From the IMG/VR virus record IMGVR_UViG_3300043397_000048, positions 1 through 27,096 of that record: DNA of 27,096 nt. One strand, given 5' to 3'. This DNA comes from a virus. Position 1 is the first letter of the stretch. Each line of letters begins with the position of its first letter. The notes under the pieces are model-generated. The model was not told where the DNA came from. It ran no database searches and saw nothing but the letters and a program-made list of their open reading frames with translations. The translations under genes and the position numbers were made by a program. Shown here piece after piece: positions 2,816 through 25,367 of the stretch.

Positions 2816-3146
2816 CACTGATAAAACACCTCCAAGTGTGGGTGATCTTCGAATGAATGAAGACACCCTTACTATGGAGATCTACAGTGGTGCTGCTTGG
2901 AAATCTATTCACCCGATTAAACCAACACCAAAAGTTTTCAAGAAGAAGTTTGTTGTCGCTGGTAACTATGGTCAATACAAATATTGGCTATCGCAGAAAG
3001 GTTACATGGCACATGAATACATATACGTTAGTGATGTGAATATGATGCGTGGGATTGAAAACCCAACAGGATTTTTCGTTGGCACTTATGAACAAAGACC
3101 TGACATTGATGAAATTAAAATGCAAATAAGAATTGCACAAAGGTAA
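2781..3146 (+). CDS. Phage conserved protein with probable TTG start (121 aa)
   Basis: The first ATG (2853) would remove TDKTPPSVGDLR, which with the following NEDTLTMEIYSGAAW forms a typical phage structural-repeat motif (G-D-L-R ... D-T ... Y-x-G-x-A-W). TTG 2781 is in frame, with GGAGGA at 2768-2773 seven bases before it, so it is chosen as the start. The C-terminal half (VVAGNYGQYKYWL ... YIYVSDVNMMRG ... FVGTYEQRPDIDEI) recalls a small domain of unknown role found in many T4-like phages. The gene ends just before the Acb1-like gene. Confidence 0.65.
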   Translation: MQPLPTLRYRSNTDKTPPSVGDLRMNEDTLTMEIYSGAAWKSIHPIKPTPKVFKKKFVVAGNYGQYKYWLSQKGYMAHEYIYVSDVNMMRGIENPTGFFVGTYEQRPDIDEIKMQIRIAQR

Positions 3147-3147
3147 T

Positions 3148-3642
3148 ATGGAACTCGCTACACTATCACAATACGCACGACACAAAGACGGTACATACGT
3201 TTCTCTCCTGATGGACAAAGCATCACGAGATTTGCTTGATGTTTTCACAACAAACAATCTTGGCTTGACTGAGAAAGTTCATCCAGATAGCTATCACTGT
3301 ACTGTTATCTACTCACGTACACCTGTACCAAACGCTGAGATAATCAAGTACCCAACAAAGGTAGTTGCTCACGTAATGGGTTATGATGTGTTCACTACCA
3401 AAGATGGTGGTAAGTGTTTGGTGATGCGACTACATTGCCCACAAGCATTCAGTTTGAATTTGGTTCTGAATAAACTCGGTGCCACATCTGATTATGATGA
3501 GTACAAACCACACGTGACTATCAGTTACAACTACACTGGCGAAATCGATCCTACTCAGTTGCCCATCCCACAGTTTCCACTGGTCTTTGACGACCATGAG
3601 GTTTCGCCCTTGGACCCCCAGTTTGTCCCTGGAAATGCTTGA
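3148..3642 (+). CDS. acb1: 2H phosphodiesterase, Acb1-like anti-CBASS protein
   Basis: The 164-residue product has the paired H-x-T motifs of 2H phosphoesterases: H50-C-T52 in SYHCTVIYS and H122-V-T124 in YKPHVTISYN. Length, motif spacing (72 residues) and flanking text (ATL near the start, YDVFTTKDG before the second motif) match the T4 gp57B/Acb1 family as I remember it. Acb1 degrades the cyclic di- and trinucleotides made by CBASS, blocking abortive infection. Start ATG 3148 has AAAGG (3139-3143) upstream; TTG 3133 is less likely. It is the last gene of the P1 operon, followed by a terminator. Family call is strong; in vivo role is inferred. Confidence 0.85.
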   Translation: MELATLSQYARHKDGTYVSLLMDKASRDLLDVFTTNNLGLTEKVHPDSYHCTVIYSRTPVPNAEIIKYPTKVVAHVMGYDVFTTKDGGKCLVMRLHCPQAFSLNLVLNKLGATSDYDEYKPHVTISYNYTGEIDPTQLPIPQFPLVFDDHEVSPLDPQFVPGNA

Positions 3643-10411: not shown

Positions 10412-10442
10412 TACTGTATTGAGATTGAAAAGAGAACTGAAA

Positions 10443-11375
10443 ATGAATGAATTGAAGATCGTTGTTTCCCCTGTTGTGAATGGTAAGACTGAAATCCGTA
10501 TCGGTGACAAGTTGGTTACTACTGGGAAGACTGGTCGTGGTCTGGAAGAAGTGATTGAATTCCACTATCGCAAGCTGACAGGTGTAAAGAAGGGTTTCGA
10601 CGAGATCATGGGTTCTACCACTATCGCTGAACCTAAGGTTGAAAAGTTCGGTATCAATGCTCGCTTCGGTTTCGTTGAGAAATTGGTCTCCATGGTCGCT
10701 GCAGGTGTTCAGCCTTCTGCCGTTATTACTGGTGAAGGTGGTCTGGGTAAGACTTATACAGTGGAAAAGACTCTGTCTGATGCTGGTTACTCCAATATCT
10801 CTTCCCTCGCTGACTTCGAAGTCGGTGCTGTAATCAATACTCGTAAGTGTTTCACTACAGTTAAGGGTTACTCCACTGCTAAGGGTTTGTATCGTACTCT
10901 GTTCGAGAACAACAAGTCCATTATTGTGTTCGATGACTGTGACGCTGTTCTGAAAGACCCAATCGCTCTGAACCTGTTGAAAGGTGCATTGGACTCATAC
11001 GGTAAACGTATCATCTCTTGGAATGCCGATATGCGTGATGACGATCTGCCACGTTCTTTCGAGTTCACTGGTCGTGTTATTTTCATCTCCAACATGGGTC
11101 AAAACAAGATTGACCAAGCTATCCGTAGCCGTTCCATGATGATTGACCTGTCCATGACCCTTGACCAGAAGATCGAGCGTATGGAGACTATTGCAATGGC
11201 AGATGAGTTTCTTCCAGAGTATGACAAGACCATTGTTCAGGATGCATTGGAGCTGATCCGTGAAATCAAGGACGAGTGCAAAGAGATCTCTCTCCGTACT
11301 CTGATCGCTGTATCCAAGGTTCGTGCTTCCAATAAAGACTGGAAAGACCTCGCTAGCTACATGTTGACTGTATAA
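10443..11375 (+). CDS. AAA+ family ATPase (phage ATP-binding protein)
   Basis: The start is ATG 10443, the first ATG after P4. The 310-residue protein has Walker A GEGGLGKT at residues 97-104, Walker B IIVFDDCD near 160-167, a sensor segment VIFISNMG, and arginines in IDQAIRSRSMMIDLS suitable as finger residues. The N-terminal 90 residues are phage-specific. The layout resembles a class of stand-alone phage AAA+ proteins of unknown substrate. It is under tandem promoters (10146 and 10383) and followed by a small acidic gene. Confidence 0.88.
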   Translation: MNELKIVVSPVVNGKTEIRIGDKLVTTGKTGRGLEEVIEFHYRKLTGVKKGFDEIMGSTTIAEPKVEKFGINARFGFVEKLVSMVAAGVQPSAVITGEGGLGKTYTVEKTLSDAGYSNISSLADFEVGAVINTRKCFTTVKGYSTAKGLYRTLFENNKSIIVFDDCDAVLKDPIALNLLKGALDSYGKRIISWNADMRDDDLPRSFEFTGRVIFISNMGQNKIDQAIRSRSMMIDLSMTLDQKIERMETIAMADEFLPEYDKTIVQDALELIREIKDECKEISLRTLIAVSKVRASNKDWKDLASYMLTV

Positions 11376-17445: not shown

Positions 17446-18219
17446 ATGGCTCGTGCAACAGCAAAAACAAGACCAATAGATAATGTACAAAGTGAGCCGA
17501 AACCAAAAGATAAGGTAGTGACTAATCATTTGAAATTAAGATTAGATGACTTAAAAACATTTGATCCATTGACGGATAATCAGAAATTATTCTTTGATGC
17601 ATATAAACGTGGTGATTATTTTGTGGCACTACATGGCGTCGCAGGTACTGGTAAAACATTCTGTGCTTTATACAAAGCCATTGAAGAAGTATTAGATAAG
17701 GGAAATCCATTCGATAAGATCATCGTAGTGCGCTCAGCAGTACAAGGTCGAGAGATTGGTCATCTTCCAGGTGATGTTAATGAGAAGATGGAAATTTATG
17801 AACAACCATATCGTCAAATCTGCGAAACCTTATTTGGTCGCAAAGACGCATGGGATAGATTAGCAGAGCAACATCATATTCAGTTTATCTCTACCTCGTT
17901 CATTCGTGGTATGTCATTCGATGATGCTATCATTATCGTTGACGAGATGCAAAACTTGACATATGAAGAGATTGATACCGTTATGACTCGTGTCGGTTAT
18001 CGATCTAAAATTTTATGGTGTGGTGATTATCGCCAGACAGACTTGAATAAACGTAAAAGTGATGTTACTGGAATTTTAAAATTCTTTGACATTGCACAAC
18101 ACATGAGTGCTTTTACTCGTATTGAGTTTACTGTTGACGACATCGTGAGATCTTCTCTCGTGAAAGAATATATTTTGGCCAAACTTAAATATGAGGATTT
18201 CTATGAGAAGAAACAATGA
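17446..18219 (+). CDS. phoH: PhoH-like P-loop ATPase
   Basis: The 257-residue protein has Walker A GVAGTGKT at residues 64-71 and Walker B IIIVDEMQNLT near 163-173. It also has the family-typical IIVVRSAVQGREIGHLPGD segment and LWCGDYRQTDL after the Walker B. PhoH is widespread in phages and bacteria; some members have RNA-helicase or ribonuclease activity, but its role in infection is unsettled. The first 40 residues are a basic, Pro-rich tail. The end overlaps the endolysin gene by 4 bases. Confidence 0.93.
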   Translation: MARATAKTRPIDNVQSEPKPKDKVVTNHLKLRLDDLKTFDPLTDNQKLFFDAYKRGDYFVALHGVAGTGKTFCALYKAIEEVLDKGNPFDKIIVVRSAVQGREIGHLPGDVNEKMEIYEQPYRQICETLFGRKDAWDRLAEQHHIQFISTSFIRGMSFDDAIIIVDEMQNLTYEEIDTVMTRVGYRSKILWCGDYRQTDLNKRKSDVTGILKFFDIAQHMSAFTRIEFTVDDIVRSSLVKEYILAKLKYEDFYEKKQ

Positions 18220-18839
18220 TAACTGCAGAACAATTCCACCACTTATTTCCTAGAAACCCAGATCCACAAGGTTGGACTGACTCGATGAATGAAGTGTTTC
18301 CAATGTACGAGATTAATACACCACAGCGAGTTGCTGCTTTCCTAGCGCAATGTGGTCATGAATCTGGTGGTTGGACAGTATTTGAAGAGAACCTTAACTA
18401 CTCTGCCAAGGGTTTGAATGGAATCTTCAAGAAGTATTTCCCAACTGAGGAATCGGCAAAGCCATATGAACGCAAGCCAGAAATGATTGCGAACAAGATC
18501 TATGCTAATCGCATGGGTAATGGTGATGAAACTTCTGGTGATGGGTATAAGTATCGTGGTCGTGGACCGATCCAGCTAACTGGAAAATCGAACTATACTC
18601 AATATGCCAAAGATATGTTCGATGACTGGGAAAACTTGGTTGAACATCCAGACTGGGTAACTGAAGATAAAGACTTTGCTCTTATGTCAGCTATCTGGTT
18701 CTGGAATAAAAATAAATTGAATCACGAAGCTGATATTGGTGATATCAAGACAATGACTCGCAAGATTAATGGCGGATACATTGGACTTGAAGACCGTATC
18801 AAGCATTATAATGAATGTATGGAACTATTAGTAGGTTAA
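18216..18839 (+). CDS. GH19 endolysin (chitinase-type muramidase)
   Basis: The 207-residue protein shows the glycoside hydrolase 19 pattern. RVAAFLAQCGHESGGWTVFE carries the catalytic glutamate (E49) and a second acidic pair (E57/E58). EENLNYSAKGLNGIFKKYF, YKYRGRGPIQLTGKSNY and ALMSAIWFWNKNKLN follow. Phage GH19 enzymes cleave the glycan strand of peptidoglycan for lysis. There is no signal peptide, so it needs a holin or other export route; none is recognised beside it. It is coupled to phoH. Confidence 0.92.
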   Translation: MITAEQFHHLFPRNPDPQGWTDSMNEVFPMYEINTPQRVAAFLAQCGHESGGWTVFEENLNYSAKGLNGIFKKYFPTEESAKPYERKPEMIANKIYANRMGNGDETSGDGYKYRGRGPIQLTGKSNYTQYAKDMFDDWENLVEHPDWVTEDKDFALMSAIWFWNKNKLNHEADIGDIKTMTRKINGGYIGLEDRIKHYNECMELLVG

Positions 18840-19493
18840 ATGAAAAACTTTATATATCATGACTTTGCGAAATTAGAACGTGAAACCTCTCCCGATGGAA
18901 TCCGAGTATACAAGACTCCATCGGGTAAGGCATATCCTTCAGTGACGACTGTTACAGGTCTTCTGAAAAAGAAGGGTATCATGGAATGGCGCAAGAGAGT
19001 AGGTGAAGCAGAAGCGAATCGAATCTCATCAAGAGCAGCAGCACGTGGAACTAGAATCCATACTTACTGTGAAGAGTTTCTATTGGGTAAAGAAATTGAA
19101 CCTGATATGTTTGATGCGCACATGGTCGACCAGATTAAATTCTGGTTGGAGCAGGTAGACAATATTCATGCACTTGAAACTCCATTGTACTCAGACTTCT
19201 TGCAAGTAGCAGGAACTGTTGATTGTATTGCTGAGTTTCAAGGTAAGCTATCTGTCATTGACTTCAAGACATCGAGTAAGCCAAAGGATCGTGATGACAT
19301 TCACGATTACTTCATGCAATGCGCTGCATATGCAGTTGCATTTGAAGAACGAACTAAAATTCCAATTGGGAATCTTGTAATTATCATGGCTGTTGATGAT
19401 GGCGACTCACGTGTATTCCAAGAGAAGCGTGATAACTGGATCGGTGGTTTCAGAAAGTTGCGAATGGATTATCGCAACTGGAAAAACATTTGA
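18840..19493 (+). CDS. PD-(D/E)XK exonuclease (RecB/Cas4/MGME1-like)
   Basis: It starts directly after the endolysin stop. The 217-residue protein has RGTRIHTYCEEFLLG (H74), GTVDCIAEF with D128, and the core VIDFKTSSKP with D141 and K143. A downstream MQCAAYAVAFEE helix follows, of the Q-x3-Y type. This is the motif order of RecB-family nucleases, closest in layout to single-strand exonucleases such as MGME1. It probably acts in phage DNA processing or host DNA breakdown. Its TGA lies in the -35 box of P10. Confidence 0.88.
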   Translation: MKNFIYHDFAKLERETSPDGIRVYKTPSGKAYPSVTTVTGLLKKKGIMEWRKRVGEAEANRISSRAAARGTRIHTYCEEFLLGKEIEPDMFDAHMVDQIKFWLEQVDNIHALETPLYSDFLQVAGTVDCIAEFQGKLSVIDFKTSSKPKDRDDIHDYFMQCAAYAVAFEERTKIPIGNLVIIMAVDDGDSRVFQEKRDNWIGGFRKLRMDYRNWKNI

Positions 19494-19519: not shown

Positions 19520-19693
19520 ATGATTAAGGTTGGTTCTATTTGGTCAGGTAGTGATCATAACCAATTCACTGTTCGTGGTGTTGAGGAACGAGCAGAAGGT
19601 ACTTGGGTATCATATGGTAAGCATGGTGAAGACCGTACTTATGAATGTTTAATTGGTGCTTTCTTAGAGAGATTTAAGGAAGTGCTAGTTTAA
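19520..19693 (+). CDS. Small phage protein (57 aa)
   Basis: GAGG at 19509-19512 is a good ribosome binding site for ATG 19520. The product (IKVGSIWSGSDHNQFTVRGV, then EGTWVSYGKHGEDRTYEC) is a small beta-rich domain of a type common in phages, with no known role. It lies between the exonuclease gene and the tmRNA acceptor piece and ends about 6 bases before that piece. Confidence 0.7.
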   Translation: MIKVGSIWSGSDHNQFTVRGVEERAEGTWVSYGKHGEDRTYECLIGAFLERFKEVLV

Positions 19694-19698
19694 AGAAT

Positions 19699-19761
19699 TG
19701 TTGTAATCCCTTCAAAGCGAAGGACTTCTGGACGTGGGTTCGACTCCCACCATCTCCACCA
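19699..19761 (+). ncRNA. tmRNA acceptor piece (3' part of mature molecule)
   Basis: T stem GTGGG (19734-19738)/CCCAC (19746-19750) closes the 7-base loop TTCGACT. The acceptor strand CATCTCC (19751-19757) and an encoded ACCA (19758-19761) follow. TGTTGT (19699-19704) can pair with GCAACA (19870-19875) of the coding piece, and TTCT (19726-19729) with AGAG (19863-19866), as an interrupted P2-type helix. The 5' boundary is approximate. Confidence 0.9.
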
Positions 19762-19829
19762 AAAGGGCATTACGTAGTAATCAGTAGGTCTTGCAAGGAA
19801 ACGCTGGTGAATGTAGTGCTTCTTCTGAT
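19762..19829 (+). other. Intervening segment of the permuted tmRNA, probably excised
   Basis: This 68-nt segment joins the CCA end to the 5' G of the coding piece. GCATTAC (19767-19773) pairs with GTAGTGC (19813-19819) over 7 bp, stacking beyond the acceptor stem. A competing local hairpin ATTAC/GTAAT spans 19769-19781. Such a loop is expected in permuted tmRNA precursors and is cut out during maturation. Confidence 0.75.
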
Positions 19830-19998
19830 GGGGATGTCATGGTTTCGACAGGGGTAGATAGTAGAGACGGCAACACGGTAGGCGATGACCGTAAATCAAG
19901 CAAATAAAGTAAATGCAAACGACTCTGTCTACGCATTAGCAGCCTAAACGCTGCTTAGGGTTTCGGTGGGTTTCCTCGTAACAGAATTACCCACCACT
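19830..19998 (+). ncRNA. tmRNA coding piece (5' part of mature molecule)
   Basis: It opens with GGGGATG, then the D-arm-like GGTTTCGACAGGG (19841-19853). A hairpin ACGGT (19875-19879)/ACCGT (19888-19892) follows in the place of pseudoknot 1, then the resume region before GCA 19915. The tag stop sits in the loop of AGCAGC (19938-19943)/GCTGCT (19950-19955), as in E. coli. A final stem GGTGGGT (19965-19971)/ACCCACC (19989-19995) probably marks the 3' end. Only one pseudoknot-like element is visible, fewer than in one-piece tmRNA. Confidence 0.92.
19915..19947 (+). other. tmRNA tag reading frame, ANDSVYALAA
   Basis: Resume codon GCA 19915-19917, then codons for NDSVYALAA and TAA at 19945-19947. 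The encoded part of the tag is ten residues long and differs from the E. coli tag ANDENYALAA only at positions 4 and 5. The C-terminal ALAA is the signal read by ClpX and ClpA. The upstream AGTAAAT before GCA matches the conserved frame-setting region. Confidence 0.93.
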
Positions 19999-20017
19999 TT
20001 ATTAACAGGAGAATCAT

Positions 20018-20188
20018 ATGAAGAATATTTTGATCGCATTGATGGTAGCTGCTTTAGCATCACCAGTATTAGCCGTAGAAGCTAAGAAGCCACCAACTAA
20101 AGCTGAAGTTAAAAAGCCAGAAGCAAAGAAGAAGGATCTTGGAGACAAGAAGCCAACTCCAAAGAAGAAAAAATCAGAAGCTAAATAA
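20018..20188 (+). CDS. Small exported Lys/Pro-rich peptide (56 aa)
   Basis: AGGAG at 20007-20011 precedes ATG 20018. A signal peptide (KNILIALMVAALASPVLA, cleavage near residue 19) is followed by a strongly basic, repetitive tail (PPTKAEVKKPEAKKKDLGDK, ending PTPKKKKSEAK). It is probably exported to the periplasm and disordered there. Such peptides could bind the acidic cell envelope or DNA. No family recognised; it follows the tmRNA directly. Confidence 0.65.
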   Translation: MKNILIALMVAALASPVLAVEAKKPPTKAEVKKPEAKKKDLGDKKPTPKKKKSEAK

Positions 20189-20249
20189 TACAGAGGGTTG
20201 GAAGAACCCTAAAACTTCCACTTTACACACAACACAAAAGGAGTACACT

Positions 20250-20528
20250 ATGGCAAACTTAACGCCATTTGAAATCCGTCTTGAACTTCTCAAGATGGCG
20301 AAAGAAATGTTGGAGCAAGACTATTACGGTCTGCGAGAAAAGGTGAGCAACGAGTACGCATCTAAATGCGACTTTGCTAAGGTTAATGGGCAAGCCATTC
20401 CTGAACACCCTGGATTCCCAGCATTCCCAAGCGAAACTGAAGTCATTAAAAAGGCTGCAGAACTAAACAGTTTCGTATCACAAATCCCACAAGCTACACT
20501 AGATAAGGCTAGCAAAAAGTCCACCTGA
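20250..20528 (+). CDS. Conserved phage protein (92 aa)
   Basis: AAAGGAG (20237-20243) before ATG 20250 selects this start. The helix LTPFEIRLELLKMAKEMLEQ opens the protein, then a Pro-rich stretch (PEHPGFPAFPSETEVIKKA) and a C-terminal helix ending DKASKKST. Comparable small proteins occur in T4-like phages of aquatic bacteria, as far as I recall, without a known role. Confidence 0.68.
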   Translation: MANLTPFEIRLELLKMAKEMLEQDYYGLREKVSNEYASKCDFAKVNGQAIPEHPGFPAFPSETEVIKKAAELNSFVSQIPQATLDKASKKST

Positions 20529-20538
20529 TATGGGATCG

Positions 20539-20567
20539 ATCAGAGGGTTCACACACCTTCTGATTTT
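20539..20567 (+). terminator. Probable terminator after the 92-aa gene
   Basis: ATCAGAGG (20539-20546) pairs with CCTTCTGAT (20556-20564) with one bulged T. The second arm runs into TTTT. Confidence 0.7.
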
Positions 20568-20587
20568 AACTAATTAAGGAGATCGTT

Positions 20588-21106
20588 ATGCGAGTATATA
20601 AAAATATATTCCTAATTATCACAGCAATGGTAATAGCTACTATTACTGCAGTTGCTTATACAAATGAATATAAGTTACTAGACGTAAGATATTCAGAATT
20701 AACAAAAGATGCCAAGAGACAAGTAGATTGTTTGGCAGAAAACATTTATCATGAAGCAGGTCACGAACCAAATAATGGTAAAGTCGCTGTTGCGTTGGTA
20801 ACATTGAACAGAGTGCAAGACCCTCGATATCCAAAAGATATTTGCTCTGTAGTGAAACAGAAGGTAAACTATACATGTCAGTTTAGTTGGTTTTGTATGC
20901 CAGTTAAGCTAGATAAAAGTGGTGATAGATATAGAGAAGCGTTGGAAACTGCGATTCATGTCTACGCTAACTATGAGAAGTTAGAAGATTTTACATATGG
21001 TGCATTATTTTATCATGCAGATTACGTAAACCCTAGATGGAAGTTGCAGAAGACGACTGTTATTGGAAGACATATTTTTTACAAAGAAGGCGGTAATCAA
21101 AAATGA
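20588..21106 (+). CDS. SleB/CwlJ-type cell wall hydrolase with signal anchor
   Basis: AAGGAG upstream supports ATG 20588. An N-terminal hydrophobic helix (IFLIITAMVIATITAVAY) looks like a signal anchor, so the enzyme may be exported by Sec. The catalytic domain matches Hydrolase_2: CLAENIYHEAG (with the key Glu), VALVTLNRV, YPKDICSVVKQK, CQFSWFC, and FYHADYVNPRW at the end. SleB-type enzymes cut peptidoglycan. With the GH19 endolysin it gives the phage two wall-degrading activities. It overlaps the ClpP-like gene by 4 bases. Confidence 0.87.
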   Translation: MRVYKNIFLIITAMVIATITAVAYTNEYKLLDVRYSELTKDAKRQVDCLAENIYHEAGHEPNNGKVAVALVTLNRVQDPRYPKDICSVVKQKVNYTCQFSWFCMPVKLDKSGDRYREALETAIHVYANYEKLEDFTYGALFYHADYVNPRWKLQKTTVIGRHIFYKEGGNQK

Positions 21107-21660
21107 TGCAAAAATTAAATTTACAACTGAAAGATGATCAGTCTCAACATTCCTTCTTTTTGATGATGGAAGAAATTTCATTGGCAACATGTAAGAGTGC
21201 CATTGAATGGATCCTAGAAGCAAACTTCTCTGAAGAACGACCTACCATGATGAACTTAGTTGTTTGTAGTCCAGGTGGTGACTTGAATGCAGCGTTTGCT
21301 TTGATTGATACAATGCGAGGATCTGCTATCCCAATTAGAACAATTGGTCTTGGTCAGATTGCATCTGCTGGCTTGTTAATCTTTATTAGTGGTGAGAAGG
21401 GTCAACGTATCTTGACACCAAACACTTCTATTCTTTCTCACCAGTACTCATGGGGTGCATTTGGTAAGGAACACGAATTGTTTGCCACTGTCAAAGAATT
21501 TGACTTGACAACTAAGAAAATGATTGCGCACTATAAGAAGTGTACTGGCTTGAAAGAAGAACAGATTCGTGAAGTTTTGTTACCACCACAAGACGTGTGG
21601 TTGAGTTCGCTTGAAGCTAAAAAATTGGGGCTATGTGACGATGTTAAAGATCTTAAGTAA
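21103..21660 (+). CDS. clpP: ClpP-like serine protease
   Basis: The 185-residue protein has SPGGDLNAAFALIDTM, GLGQIASAGLLIF with the nucleophile serine at 88, and ILSHQYSWGAFG with histidine 113. PPQDVWLSSLEAKKLGLCDD gives aspartate 164. The ClpP triad therefore looks complete and in the normal order. ClpP forms a barrel protease fed by ClpX or ClpA. In phages, ClpP-like proteins may be prohead proteases or may act with host Clp ATPases; the T4-like genome and its distance from head genes make the second more likely (inference). It lies 1.1 kb downstream of the tmRNA. Confidence 0.9.
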   Translation: MMQKLNLQLKDDQSQHSFFLMMEEISLATCKSAIEWILEANFSEERPTMMNLVVCSPGGDLNAAFALIDTMRGSAIPIRTIGLGQIASAGLLIFISGEKGQRILTPNTSILSHQYSWGAFGKEHELFATVKEFDLTTKKMIAHYKKCTGLKEEQIREVLLPPQDVWLSSLEAKKLGLCDDVKDLK

Positions 21661-23134: not shown

Positions 23135-23386
23135 ATGCACGCATCATATCAAAAAATTGTTGAAGCGTCTGGAGATCGAGCGCAACTTGAGAAACTCTAC
23201 ATGGAGTTAATTGTCGAGAAGATGAGGCTTGATAAATTCTTCACGATGTTCCTTGATAAATTTGAATCAAAGATGGACTGCGAAGAACCCAATACACCAA
23301 TTTGGAAACTCTACCGTTCTAAACACAAAGAATACGGTGAGATTGAACAAGCTGTAAAAGCAGCAAAATACTACATGAGCAAATAA
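23135..23386 (+). CDS. Helical protein upstream of gp33 (83 aa)
   Basis: The product is almost all helical (YMELIVEKMRLDKFFTMFLD) with PNTPIWKLYRSKHKEYGE and ends AKYYMSK. A small protein of this kind recurs just before gp33 in related phages, as far as I recall, with no known role. Its stop overlaps the gp33 start (TAATG). There is no strong SD before ATG 23135. Confidence 0.72.
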   Translation: MHASYQKIVEASGDRAQLEKLYMELIVEKMRLDKFFTMFLDKFESKMDCEEPNTPIWKLYRSKHKEYGEIEQAVKAAKYYMSK

Positions 23387-23604
23387 TGTTTAAAAGCGCA
23401 AACGAATTTTCACTACATATTGAACAGATCGTAAAAGATAAAAAATTATCTTATATGGATGCTGTCCTTGATTATTGTAAAGAGAACTATCTTGAACCCG
23501 ACGATGTTGCCAAGTTAATTAACAAAGCACTCAAAGGTAAGATTGAACTCGATATGCAAGAACTTAATTACTTACCTAAAACGGCAAAGCTGGAAGATTT
23601 TTGA
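23386..23604 (+). CDS. 33: Late transcription coactivator, gp33-like
   Basis: The 72-residue product (LSYMDAVLDYCKENYLEPDD, VAKLINKALKGKIELDMQEL, NYLPKTAKLEDF) matches the short gp33 proteins of T4-like phages in pattern and sits directly before gp59. In T4, gp33 links RNA polymerase and gp55 to the sliding clamp on late promoters; the clamp-binding tail is expected at the C-terminus. It is shorter than T4 gp33 (112 aa). The overlap with both neighbours supports co-translation. Confidence 0.8.
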   Translation: MFKSANEFSLHIEQIVKDKKLSYMDAVLDYCKENYLEPDDVAKLINKALKGKIELDMQELNYLPKTAKLEDF

Positions 23605-24218
23605 TGGATGGTTTTAAAGCATACAAATATTACATGGCTGTGAAGCTGCATTTTACAAAAGATAATTTTGATGTGTTTAAAAATCGTGGTAATATCAAAG
23701 GCACTCGTGAAGCATTTAATGCAAGAAACGATCGGTATGCCTTTGAGAAGTTGGCACGAAAGTTTCCAGTGGATAAAGACTTGATTCAGTTCTACGTTGC
23801 AAATTTTGCATATGGTAATGAATCAGCTGTATATGCCTCTGAAGAAGCTGATACATATTTACTTGAGTGGAATAAACGTAAGCAGTCAATTACCAAGATT
23901 TTCTCTGATGATTGTAACCGTATCCTTATGGATGCTTACAAGAATAAGATTAAAGAAGATGGTATATTTGACTTGACAAATAAGTCATATTCAAGTATAC
24001 TTAAATTATTCCTCGGTAAGCAGATAAGTCTTGAAACTGTTAGGATTCTTGACGACTTTCGCCCGATGGTTGCATCGTGGAAAGAAAATACGTCTATGTT
24101 ATTGTTATGGGAAAACGAGATTCGCAGGATTGAAAAATCCCAAGGTTTCGTTAAGTATGATACCGATAAGGTAGCGAAAGTTTTTAATTCATTTATGGAA
24201 GAAGTTAAAGAGTTGTAA
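23604..24218 (+). CDS. 59: DNA helicase loader, gp59-like
   Basis: The start is ATG 23604 (TGATG overlap with gp33). The 204-residue product begins DGFKAYKYYMAVKLHFTKDN and continues VFKNRGNIKGTREAFNARND and ARKFPVDKDLIQFYVANFAY. This matches the N-terminal domain of T4 gp59, which loads gp41 helicase onto gp32-coated DNA at forks. The C-terminal half is all helical, as expected. Its position next to gp32 and gp33 repeats T4 order. Confidence 0.92.
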   Translation: MDGFKAYKYYMAVKLHFTKDNFDVFKNRGNIKGTREAFNARNDRYAFEKLARKFPVDKDLIQFYVANFAYGNESAVYASEEADTYLLEWNKRKQSITKIFSDDCNRILMDAYKNKIKEDGIFDLTNKSYSSILKLFLGKQISLETVRILDDFRPMVASWKENTSMLLLWENEIRRIEKSQGFVKYDTDKVAKVFNSFMEEVKEL

Positions 24219-24449: not shown

Positions 24450-25367
24450 ATGGATATTCAATCACTACGCAAAATGCGCAACTCTGACTTTGGTGCTATT
24501 TCAAACGCATTCGAAAAAGTCGCAAATCCCCAATCTGAATCTAAGTCTTACAACGACGATCGCTTTTGGCGTCTCGAAGGTGACAAGGCAGGTAATGGCA
24601 CAGCCACAATTCGTTTTCTACCACGTGTAGAAGGTGATGAGTTGCCATGGGTTCGTTTGTTCTCGCATGGTTTCCAAGGTCCAACTGGTAAGTGGTATAT
24701 CGAGAATAGTTTGACTACTCTCGGTGAAAACGATCCTGTTGGTGAATTGAACACCAAACTTTGGAACTCTGGTTCTGAAGCGAACAAAGAGATTGCACGT
24801 AAGCAAAAGCGTAAGTTGGGTTTCACTGCCAACATTTATGTTGTGTCTGACCCTAAGCATCCAGAAAACGAAGGCAAGGTATTCTTGTTTAAGTTTGGTA
24901 AGAAAATCTTTGATAAAATCATGGATAAGGCTCGCCCAACTTTCGAAGACGAGAAGCCAGTCAACGTGTTTGACTTCTGGGAAGGTGCGAACTTTAAACT
25001 TCGCATGCGCAAGAAAGATGGTTTCACCAACTATGATGAATCTTCTTTCAGCGATCCAGCTCCAATCGCTCAGAATGACGAAGACATTCTAGCCATCGCA
25101 AATGCTCAACACAAGTTGTCTGAGTTTACCGATCGCAAGAACTTCAAGTCTTATGATGAGTTGAAGAAGAAACTTGAAGAAGTTTTGTCTGGTGATTCAT
25201 ACTCAGCTCCGTCTGCTGCTCAAATGGCAGAAGAAGATCGTCCTGTTGCTGCTGCTCCAGCATTTACTGCTAAAGCTGCTCCATCGGCAGGTGCTTCTAA
25301 GCCAGCGCCAGCTGATGATGACGATGATGTTATGTCTTACTTCGAGAAGATTGCTCGAGACGAATAA
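24450..25367 (+). CDS. 32: Single-stranded DNA-binding protein, gp32-like
   Basis: AAAGGAAA precedes ATG 24450. The 305-residue product has a basic N-terminal region for cooperativity (SLRKMRNSDFGAISNAFEK), an OB-fold core (DRFWRLEGDKAGNGTATIRF, ELPWVRLFSHGFQGPTGKWY, FTANIYVVSDPKHPENEGKV), a Pro/Ala linker and an acidic C-terminal tail (DDDDDVMSYFEKIARDE). Unlike T4 gp32 it contains no cysteine, so the zinc site of the T4 protein is absent. It coats single-stranded DNA at the fork and recruits gp59. A terminator follows. Confidence 0.94.
   Translation: MDIQSLRKMRNSDFGAISNAFEKVANPQSESKSYNDDRFWRLEGDKAGNGTATIRFLPRVEGDELPWVRLFSHGFQGPTGKWYIENSLTTLGENDPVGELNTKLWNSGSEANKEIARKQKRKLGFTANIYVVSDPKHPENEGKVFLFKFGKKIFDKIMDKARPTFEDEKPVNVFDFWEGANFKLRMRKKDGFTNYDESSFSDPAPIAQNDEDILAIANAQHKLSEFTDRKNFKSYDELKKKLEEVLSGDSYSAPSAAQMAEEDRPVAAAPAFTAKAAPSAGASKPAPADDDDDVMSYFEKIARDE

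Follow-up and report, generated by a model that had tools for sequence, protein, structure and literature searches.

Do the tmRNA and the ClpP-like protease encoded close together in a T4-like phage serve a single route of protein degradation, or are they separate genes that happen to share a locus? The window, by which we mean the whole stretch of DNA analysed, is a 27,096-base virus record and represents a fragment (27 kb) of a T4-like phage, an assignment made because homologues of PhoH, a GH19 endolysin, an exonuclease, gp33, gp59 and gp32 form one block. Within that block the two genes share an inherited order, PhoH - exonuclease - tmRNA - SleB - ClpP - gp33 - gp59 - gp32. The initial annotation had proposed that the tmRNA and ClpP constitute a phage proteolysis module. 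We believe that the best account is a facultative, loosely coupled partnership, in which the phage supplies host SmpB and ClpX/ClpA with two spare parts, and we give this reading a probability of about 0.5. The features on which the argument turns are as follows.

17446 to 18219, + strand: PhoH (PF02562), the upstream end of the conserved block
18840 to 19493, + strand: PD-(D/E)XK exonuclease (PF12705, phrog_298), next to the tmRNA on its upstream side
19699 to about 20016, + strand: complete, circularly permuted (two-piece) tmRNA of betaproteobacterial type (Rfam, ARAGORN)
19699 to 19761, + strand: acceptor (tRNA 3') piece of the tmRNA, from the RF04321/RF01850 alignment, with the discriminator A and an encoded CCA at its end
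19762 to 19829, + strand: intervening segment of 68 nt, the gap between the two pieces, largely a hairpin in the MFE fold
19830 to 19990, + strand: 5' / mRNA-like piece, starting GGGGATG; its 3' end is approximate, the model match reaching 20016
19915 to 19947, + strand: tag frame ANDSVYALAA plus TAA (ARAGORN; synonymous variation at the ALAA codons in homologues)
20018 to 20188: small secreted-type ORF between the tmRNA and SleB
20588 to 21106, + strand: SleB-type cell wall hydrolase (PF07486), by synteny the most constant neighbour of ClpP
21103 to 21660, + strand: ClpP-like serine protease, type 1, 185 aa (PF00574, 97.7 bits, cut-off 20.2)
21364 to 21366, + strand: codon of catalytic Ser88, kept in 174/174 homologues
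21439 to 21441, + strand: codon of catalytic His113, kept in 173/174 homologues
21592 to 21594, + strand: codon of catalytic Asp164, kept in 174/174 homologues
23386 to 23604, + strand: gp33-like late-transcription coactivator (PF16805, 78.9 bits), in the downstream part of the block
23601 to 24218, + strand: gp59-like helicase loader (PF08993, phrog_269)
24450 to 25367, + strand: gp32-like single-strand DNA-binding protein (PF08804, 152.9 bits)

The tag stop lies 1.16 kb from the ClpP start, and the SleB stop and ClpP start overlap by 4 bp (ATGA). No T4 late promoter TATAAATA was found across the window, and a sigma-70 promoter scan of the window did not rise clearly over chance level. Two cell-wall-degrading enzymes are encoded less than 3 kb apart, the GH19 endolysin at 18216-18839 (+) and SleB at 20588-21106 (+). 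Elsewhere in the window, at 3133-3642 (+), an ORF homologous to anti-CBASS Acb1 is encoded (PF23474, 90.1 bits; phrog_755), so that the phage probably counters cyclic-nucleotide defence.

The tmRNA was called by ARAGORN as a permuted gene at 19669-20038 (+) with the tag ANDSVYALAA. The beta_tmRNA model RF01850 matched over its whole length (model positions 1-331) at 19660-20016 with 158.9 bits (cut-off 84), and the tmRNA_permuted model RF04321 matched at 19699-19947 with 152.2 bits (cut-off 47); a standard one-piece tmRNA was considered as an alternative and gave no match above cut-off. Since the Rfam scores here, like the Pfam scores at this locus, far exceed their curated cut-offs, a chance match is excluded. 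The initial annotation was right about a tmRNA with an ALAA-ending tag and left its two-piece form unmentioned. The acceptor strand CATCTCC (19751-19757) pairs with GGGGATG across the gap at 7/7 positions, including G3-U70. The segment between the two pieces, presumably cut out of the permuted precursor in maturation, measures 26-200 nt across homologues and mostly 53-79.

Is this RNA functional? For comparison we assembled 96 unique phage tmRNAs from loci found by ClpP similarity and from loci found by a DNA pattern blind to ClpP, and 91 of these could be parsed. All seven acceptor pairs, the alanine identity pair G3-U70 and the encoded CCA were present in 90/91, and the stem occurred in six compensated versions, a change in one strand being matched in the other. 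In homologues the AND start of the tag was kept and the ALAA end mostly kept while synonymous codons varied, the Leu codon of ALAA being TTA in 50, TTG in 30 and CTA in 21. Because the stem is compensated, G3-U70 and CCA are retained and the tag codons vary synonymously, these sequence comparisons indicate that the tmRNA is a working RNA with a selected tag peptide and not scrap. Prophage attachment sites often lie within ssrA, and a captured attachment site could leave behind a non-functional remnant; given a complete two-piece gene with the features just described, which widely varied T4-like phages carry at this locus, and given that the scanned ORFs of the window include no integrase, we consider such an origin very improbable. 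In single-sequence folding, the energy of the RNA did not stand out (z -1.1). ARAGORN misses some tmRNAs of this kind, four (L008, L460, L472, L484) being found only when the covariance model was run on the record. A number of homologues (L053, L092, L097, L105, L110, L113, L123, L124, L142 and others) carry the variant tag ends RLAA, LMAA, AMAA or RIAA in place of ALAA, which may alter recognition by ClpX.

The protease is likewise intact and under selection. Residues S88, H113 and D164 align with the ClpP triad, as the initial annotation had read them, and are near-invariant in 174 homologues; dN/dS is approximately 0.07, with dS near saturation. The AlphaFold (AF2) monomer model (pLDDT 89.7, pTM 0.86) has the ClpP fold with its handle helix and superimposes on solved ClpPs (Foldseek E 9e-18; VIA Z ~25, rmsd 1.6 over 168 residues). 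The model and the alignments together identify it as a genuine serine protease of the ClpP fold whose triad is intact. Its score against the NCBIfam ClpP equivalog TIGR00493 is nevertheless far below the cut-off (66.5 bits vs 308.6). Residue 15 of the window ClpP corresponds to S. aureus residue 26, so that its N-terminal axial region is shortened by about 11 residues. In a manual alignment the docking pocket for the ClpX IGF loop is partly conserved: E. coli Y60, F82, L114 and L189 become N51, G73, T105 and K182, while about 6/10 equivalent positions are still hydrophobic. From a pocket altered in this way, docking of a Clp ATPase can therefore only be inferred.

Many phage S14 proteins are prohead proteases. 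The best PHROG match of the window ClpP is phrog_94, annotated as a head maturation protease, so the protein could in principle mature the phage head, an outcome that the initial annotation had recognised as fatal to its proposal. However, a separate S77/gp21 protease is encoded in those relatives whose records are of sufficient length (G031, G034, G035, G036 and G053), the clpP gene adjoins SleB, gp33, gp59 and gp32 rather than a capsid block, and the score against the NCBIfam head-protease model NF045542 is 55.1 bits, under the cut-off of 120. On the strength of the separate S77 protease and the sub-cut-off score we reject a role as head protease, and regard it as the least probable of the explanations weighed here.

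With what would these two genes work? The initial annotation had suggested that both depend on host SmpB and ClpX/ClpA. No SmpB is encoded in the window. Across 46 records searched, SmpB was absent in 45, G022 being the sole carrier, and a ClpA/ClpX-type domain was absent in 44, the only carriers being G022 and jumbo phage Phosso; neither SmpB nor a ClpX/ClpA-type ATPase was found in any T4-like relative searched. Host partners would therefore be needed, as proposed. We consider it very likely that the tmRNA works via host SmpB, and on balance probable that ClpP is a non-structural peptidase working with host Clp ATPases. The larger phages bear on the second point. Phosso encodes a ClpP 50% identical to that of the window, along with its own ClpX, ClpA-like protein and permuted tmRNA; its ClpX scores 573 bits (cut-off 359) and has a zinc finger and an IGF-containing loop, and the Phosso ClpP shares at least some of the pocket changes of the window ClpP. 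G022 (IMGVR_UViG_3300035698_035310, 359 kb; L232, L254, L262, L263) combines ClpP, ClpX, a ClpA-like protein and SmpB, and gave no tmRNA over threshold with RF04321 or RF00023. These gene sets favour an ATPase-driven peptidase role for this ClpP clade. The window itself contains two AAA-type ATPases, at 538-1593 and 10419-11375 (both +; phrog_2376 and phrog_1250), neither of them ClpX- nor ClpA-like, one of which may be an unusual ClpP partner. Judging from the tmRNA type, the host is probably a freshwater betaproteobacterium; two scans of bacterial genomes with a tmRNA pattern gave no match, probably because the gap range of the pattern suited the long intervening segments of phage tmRNAs.

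The question then becomes how tightly the two genes are linked, which we approached through samples chosen in different ways. The sample of nearest ClpPs comprised 80 loci, 45 of them with more than 3 kb upstream, and in 43/45 a tmRNA lay on the same strand at a median of about 1.5 kb upstream. For ClpPs nearest the version in Synechococcus phage BUCT-ZZ01 the tmRNA is usually non-adjacent, and a permuted tmRNA is present elsewhere in 6/8 records of at least 100 kb with this more distant type-1 ClpP (BUCT-ZZ01 and Phosso included). Records chosen by their S77 prohead protease (n=18) had both genes in 8 cases, ClpP only in 1, tmRNA only in 0 and neither in 9, many of the last being fragments; a Fisher test calculated by hand gave about 2e-4 with all 18 records included and 0.02 when only those of at least 75 kb were counted, values that are too optimistic given shared descent. 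Phages chosen by permuted tmRNA alone contained any ClpP in 16/49 records, and among those of at least 140 kb ClpP was present in 2/9 and absent from 7/9. In some of these tmRNA-chosen records the gene directly after the tmRNA encodes a divergent ClpP (26-30% identical); in many tmRNA-anchored loci the order exonuclease-tmRNA-SleB occurs without a window-type ClpP. Finally, gp59-anchored loci, a sample blind to both genes and limited to those with at least 6 kb upstream (n=30), had ClpP beside SleB in 30/30 and a tmRNA in 22 (18 by ARAGORN and 4 more by covariance model on the record), leaving 8/30 without; as ClpP is fixed in this sample, a 2x2 association test is impossible there.

These counts must be read against descent. 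On a gp59 tree of 102 rows, made by a quick method and with long outgroup branches, the states type-1 ClpP, type-2 ClpP or none require 2 changes, and presence of the tmRNA requires 3. The tmRNA was thus lost about three times with ClpP retained. In a sister clade the ClpP at this locus is non-orthologous (24% identical), the ClpP type having switched once on the tree. No ClpP was found in the genomes of the nearest isolates, Melnitz and Mosig, although each has a tmRNA at the same locus; gene 78 of Melnitz, which follows its SleB, was considered as a candidate and is not ClpP. We conclude that the co-occurrence counts largely reflect a shared inherited block, the coupling being real but incomplete.

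Could the pair nonetheless be a dedicated module, co-selected so that phage ClpP chiefly clears phage-tagged chains? The 43/45 nearest-ClpP loci, the 6/8 long records, the S77 sample, the finding that two very distantly related ClpP types adjoin the tmRNA, and Phosso, which has every part but SmpB, all point that way. However, most of the counts are explained by shared ancestry with a single change of ClpP type, ClpP survives some three losses of the tmRNA, and Melnitz, Mosig and 7/9 of the large tmRNA phages have the tmRNA but no ClpP; we therefore think so strict a dependence unlikely. The initial proposal accordingly stands in part. Both genes are intact, under selection and co-occurring in relatives, but they are separable in both directions, and the co-occurrence that is so consistent around the nearest ClpPs weakens to 22/30 for the tmRNA at gp59 loci and to 2/9 for ClpP in large tmRNA phages.

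At the other extreme, the tmRNA and ClpP may be two independent accessory genes in a gene-rich block, the tmRNA rescuing ribosomes with host proteins and ClpP being tied to SleB or to other phage or host protein turnover. The constancy of the SleB-ClpP pair in gp59-anchored loci, tmRNA or not, and the overlap of these two genes in the window favour such independence, as do the Melnitz and Mosig loci and the many exonuclease-tmRNA-SleB loci without a window-type ClpP. Yet independence leaves unexplained why jumbo-phage ClpP is found with ClpX, ClpA and tmRNA or SmpB, and why a replacement ClpP occupies the same slot, and the ClpP of BUCT-ZZ01 has no adjoining SleB. We judge full independence somewhat unlikely.

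We therefore return to the facultative partnership. In our model, a lytic T4-like phage would hand two spare parts to the protein quality control of its host. The two-piece tmRNA, charged with alanine and bound by host SmpB, would release ribosomes stalled on broken messages, and unfinished chains would receive ANDSVYALAA. The phage ClpP, by itself or in mixed assemblies with its host counterpart, would build a peptidase barrel fed by host ClpX or ClpA, and would break down tagged chains plus other substrates. Since the end of the tag is a degron read by host ClpX, the two genes probably overlap in function, and tagging by the one could lead to degradation by the other in a shared pathway. Counting against the partnership are the altered IGF pocket, the short N-terminal axial region, the sub-cut-off equivalog score and the separate gain and loss of the two genes. 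A bolder version would have a widespread freshwater T4-like group running a tag-and-destroy route, with phage tmRNA and a phage ClpP barrel acting via host SmpB and ClpX, ClpP replaced at least once at the locus by a very distant ClpP, and Phosso-like jumbo phages carrying nearly the whole pathway; this we hold to be doubtful. The single-gene states that occur naturally (tmRNA only, ClpP only, both, or a swapped ClpP) make the functional link testable by comparison and by simple reconstitution.

Two-piece tmRNAs are known in T4-like phages: a tmRNA was reported in 402/18,146 phages, with 53 two-piece forms among 133 unique tmRNA structures (PMC9004378). Methylophilales phage Melnitz (MZ577097) and Pelagibacter phage Mosig (MT647606; both PMC9004378) resemble the window in having a permuted tmRNA at the same T4-like locus, with exonuclease, tmRNA, gp33, gp59 and gp32. 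Their tmRNAs are of the alpha type (RF01849) and their genomes lack ClpP, whereas the window tmRNA is of the beta type and is followed by SleB and ClpP; in Melnitz the tmRNA is followed by a glutamine riboswitch (L522:9646-9694, aptamer, as published). In Mosig a manA RNA motif (L523:9264-9471) lies just ahead of the rubrerythrin and gp32 genes. The ClpP of BUCT-ZZ01 is 55% identical to that of the window and stands in the same order of PhoH, lysis-type peptidase, exonuclease and ClpP, in a genome with a permuted tmRNA; unlike in the window, that tmRNA is about 41 kb from ClpP, and SleB is not beside ClpP. With the bacterial ClpPs of S. aureus and E. coli (PF00574) the window protein has in common the fold, triad and handle helix, and it differs in sequence (~23-28% identical by structural alignment), in its shorter N-terminal axial region and altered docking pocket, and in falling under the NCBIfam ClpP cut-off. 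Clp proteins and a tmRNA have already been reported in jumbo phages (PMC6102473, PMC11242549): AP-J-162 has one tmRNA and six Clp ORFs (PMC11242549), Atu_ph07 is listed without a tmRNA (PMC6102473), and both are reported to encode their own Clp ATPases, as we found for Phosso, in contrast to the window's T4-like relatives, which lack them. No report of a tmRNA-SleB-ClpP block was found in the open-access literature searched, most subscription journals lying outside that scope. Phage tmRNAs and phage ClpPs are thus each already known, and this locus presents them as a defined and widely conserved pair.
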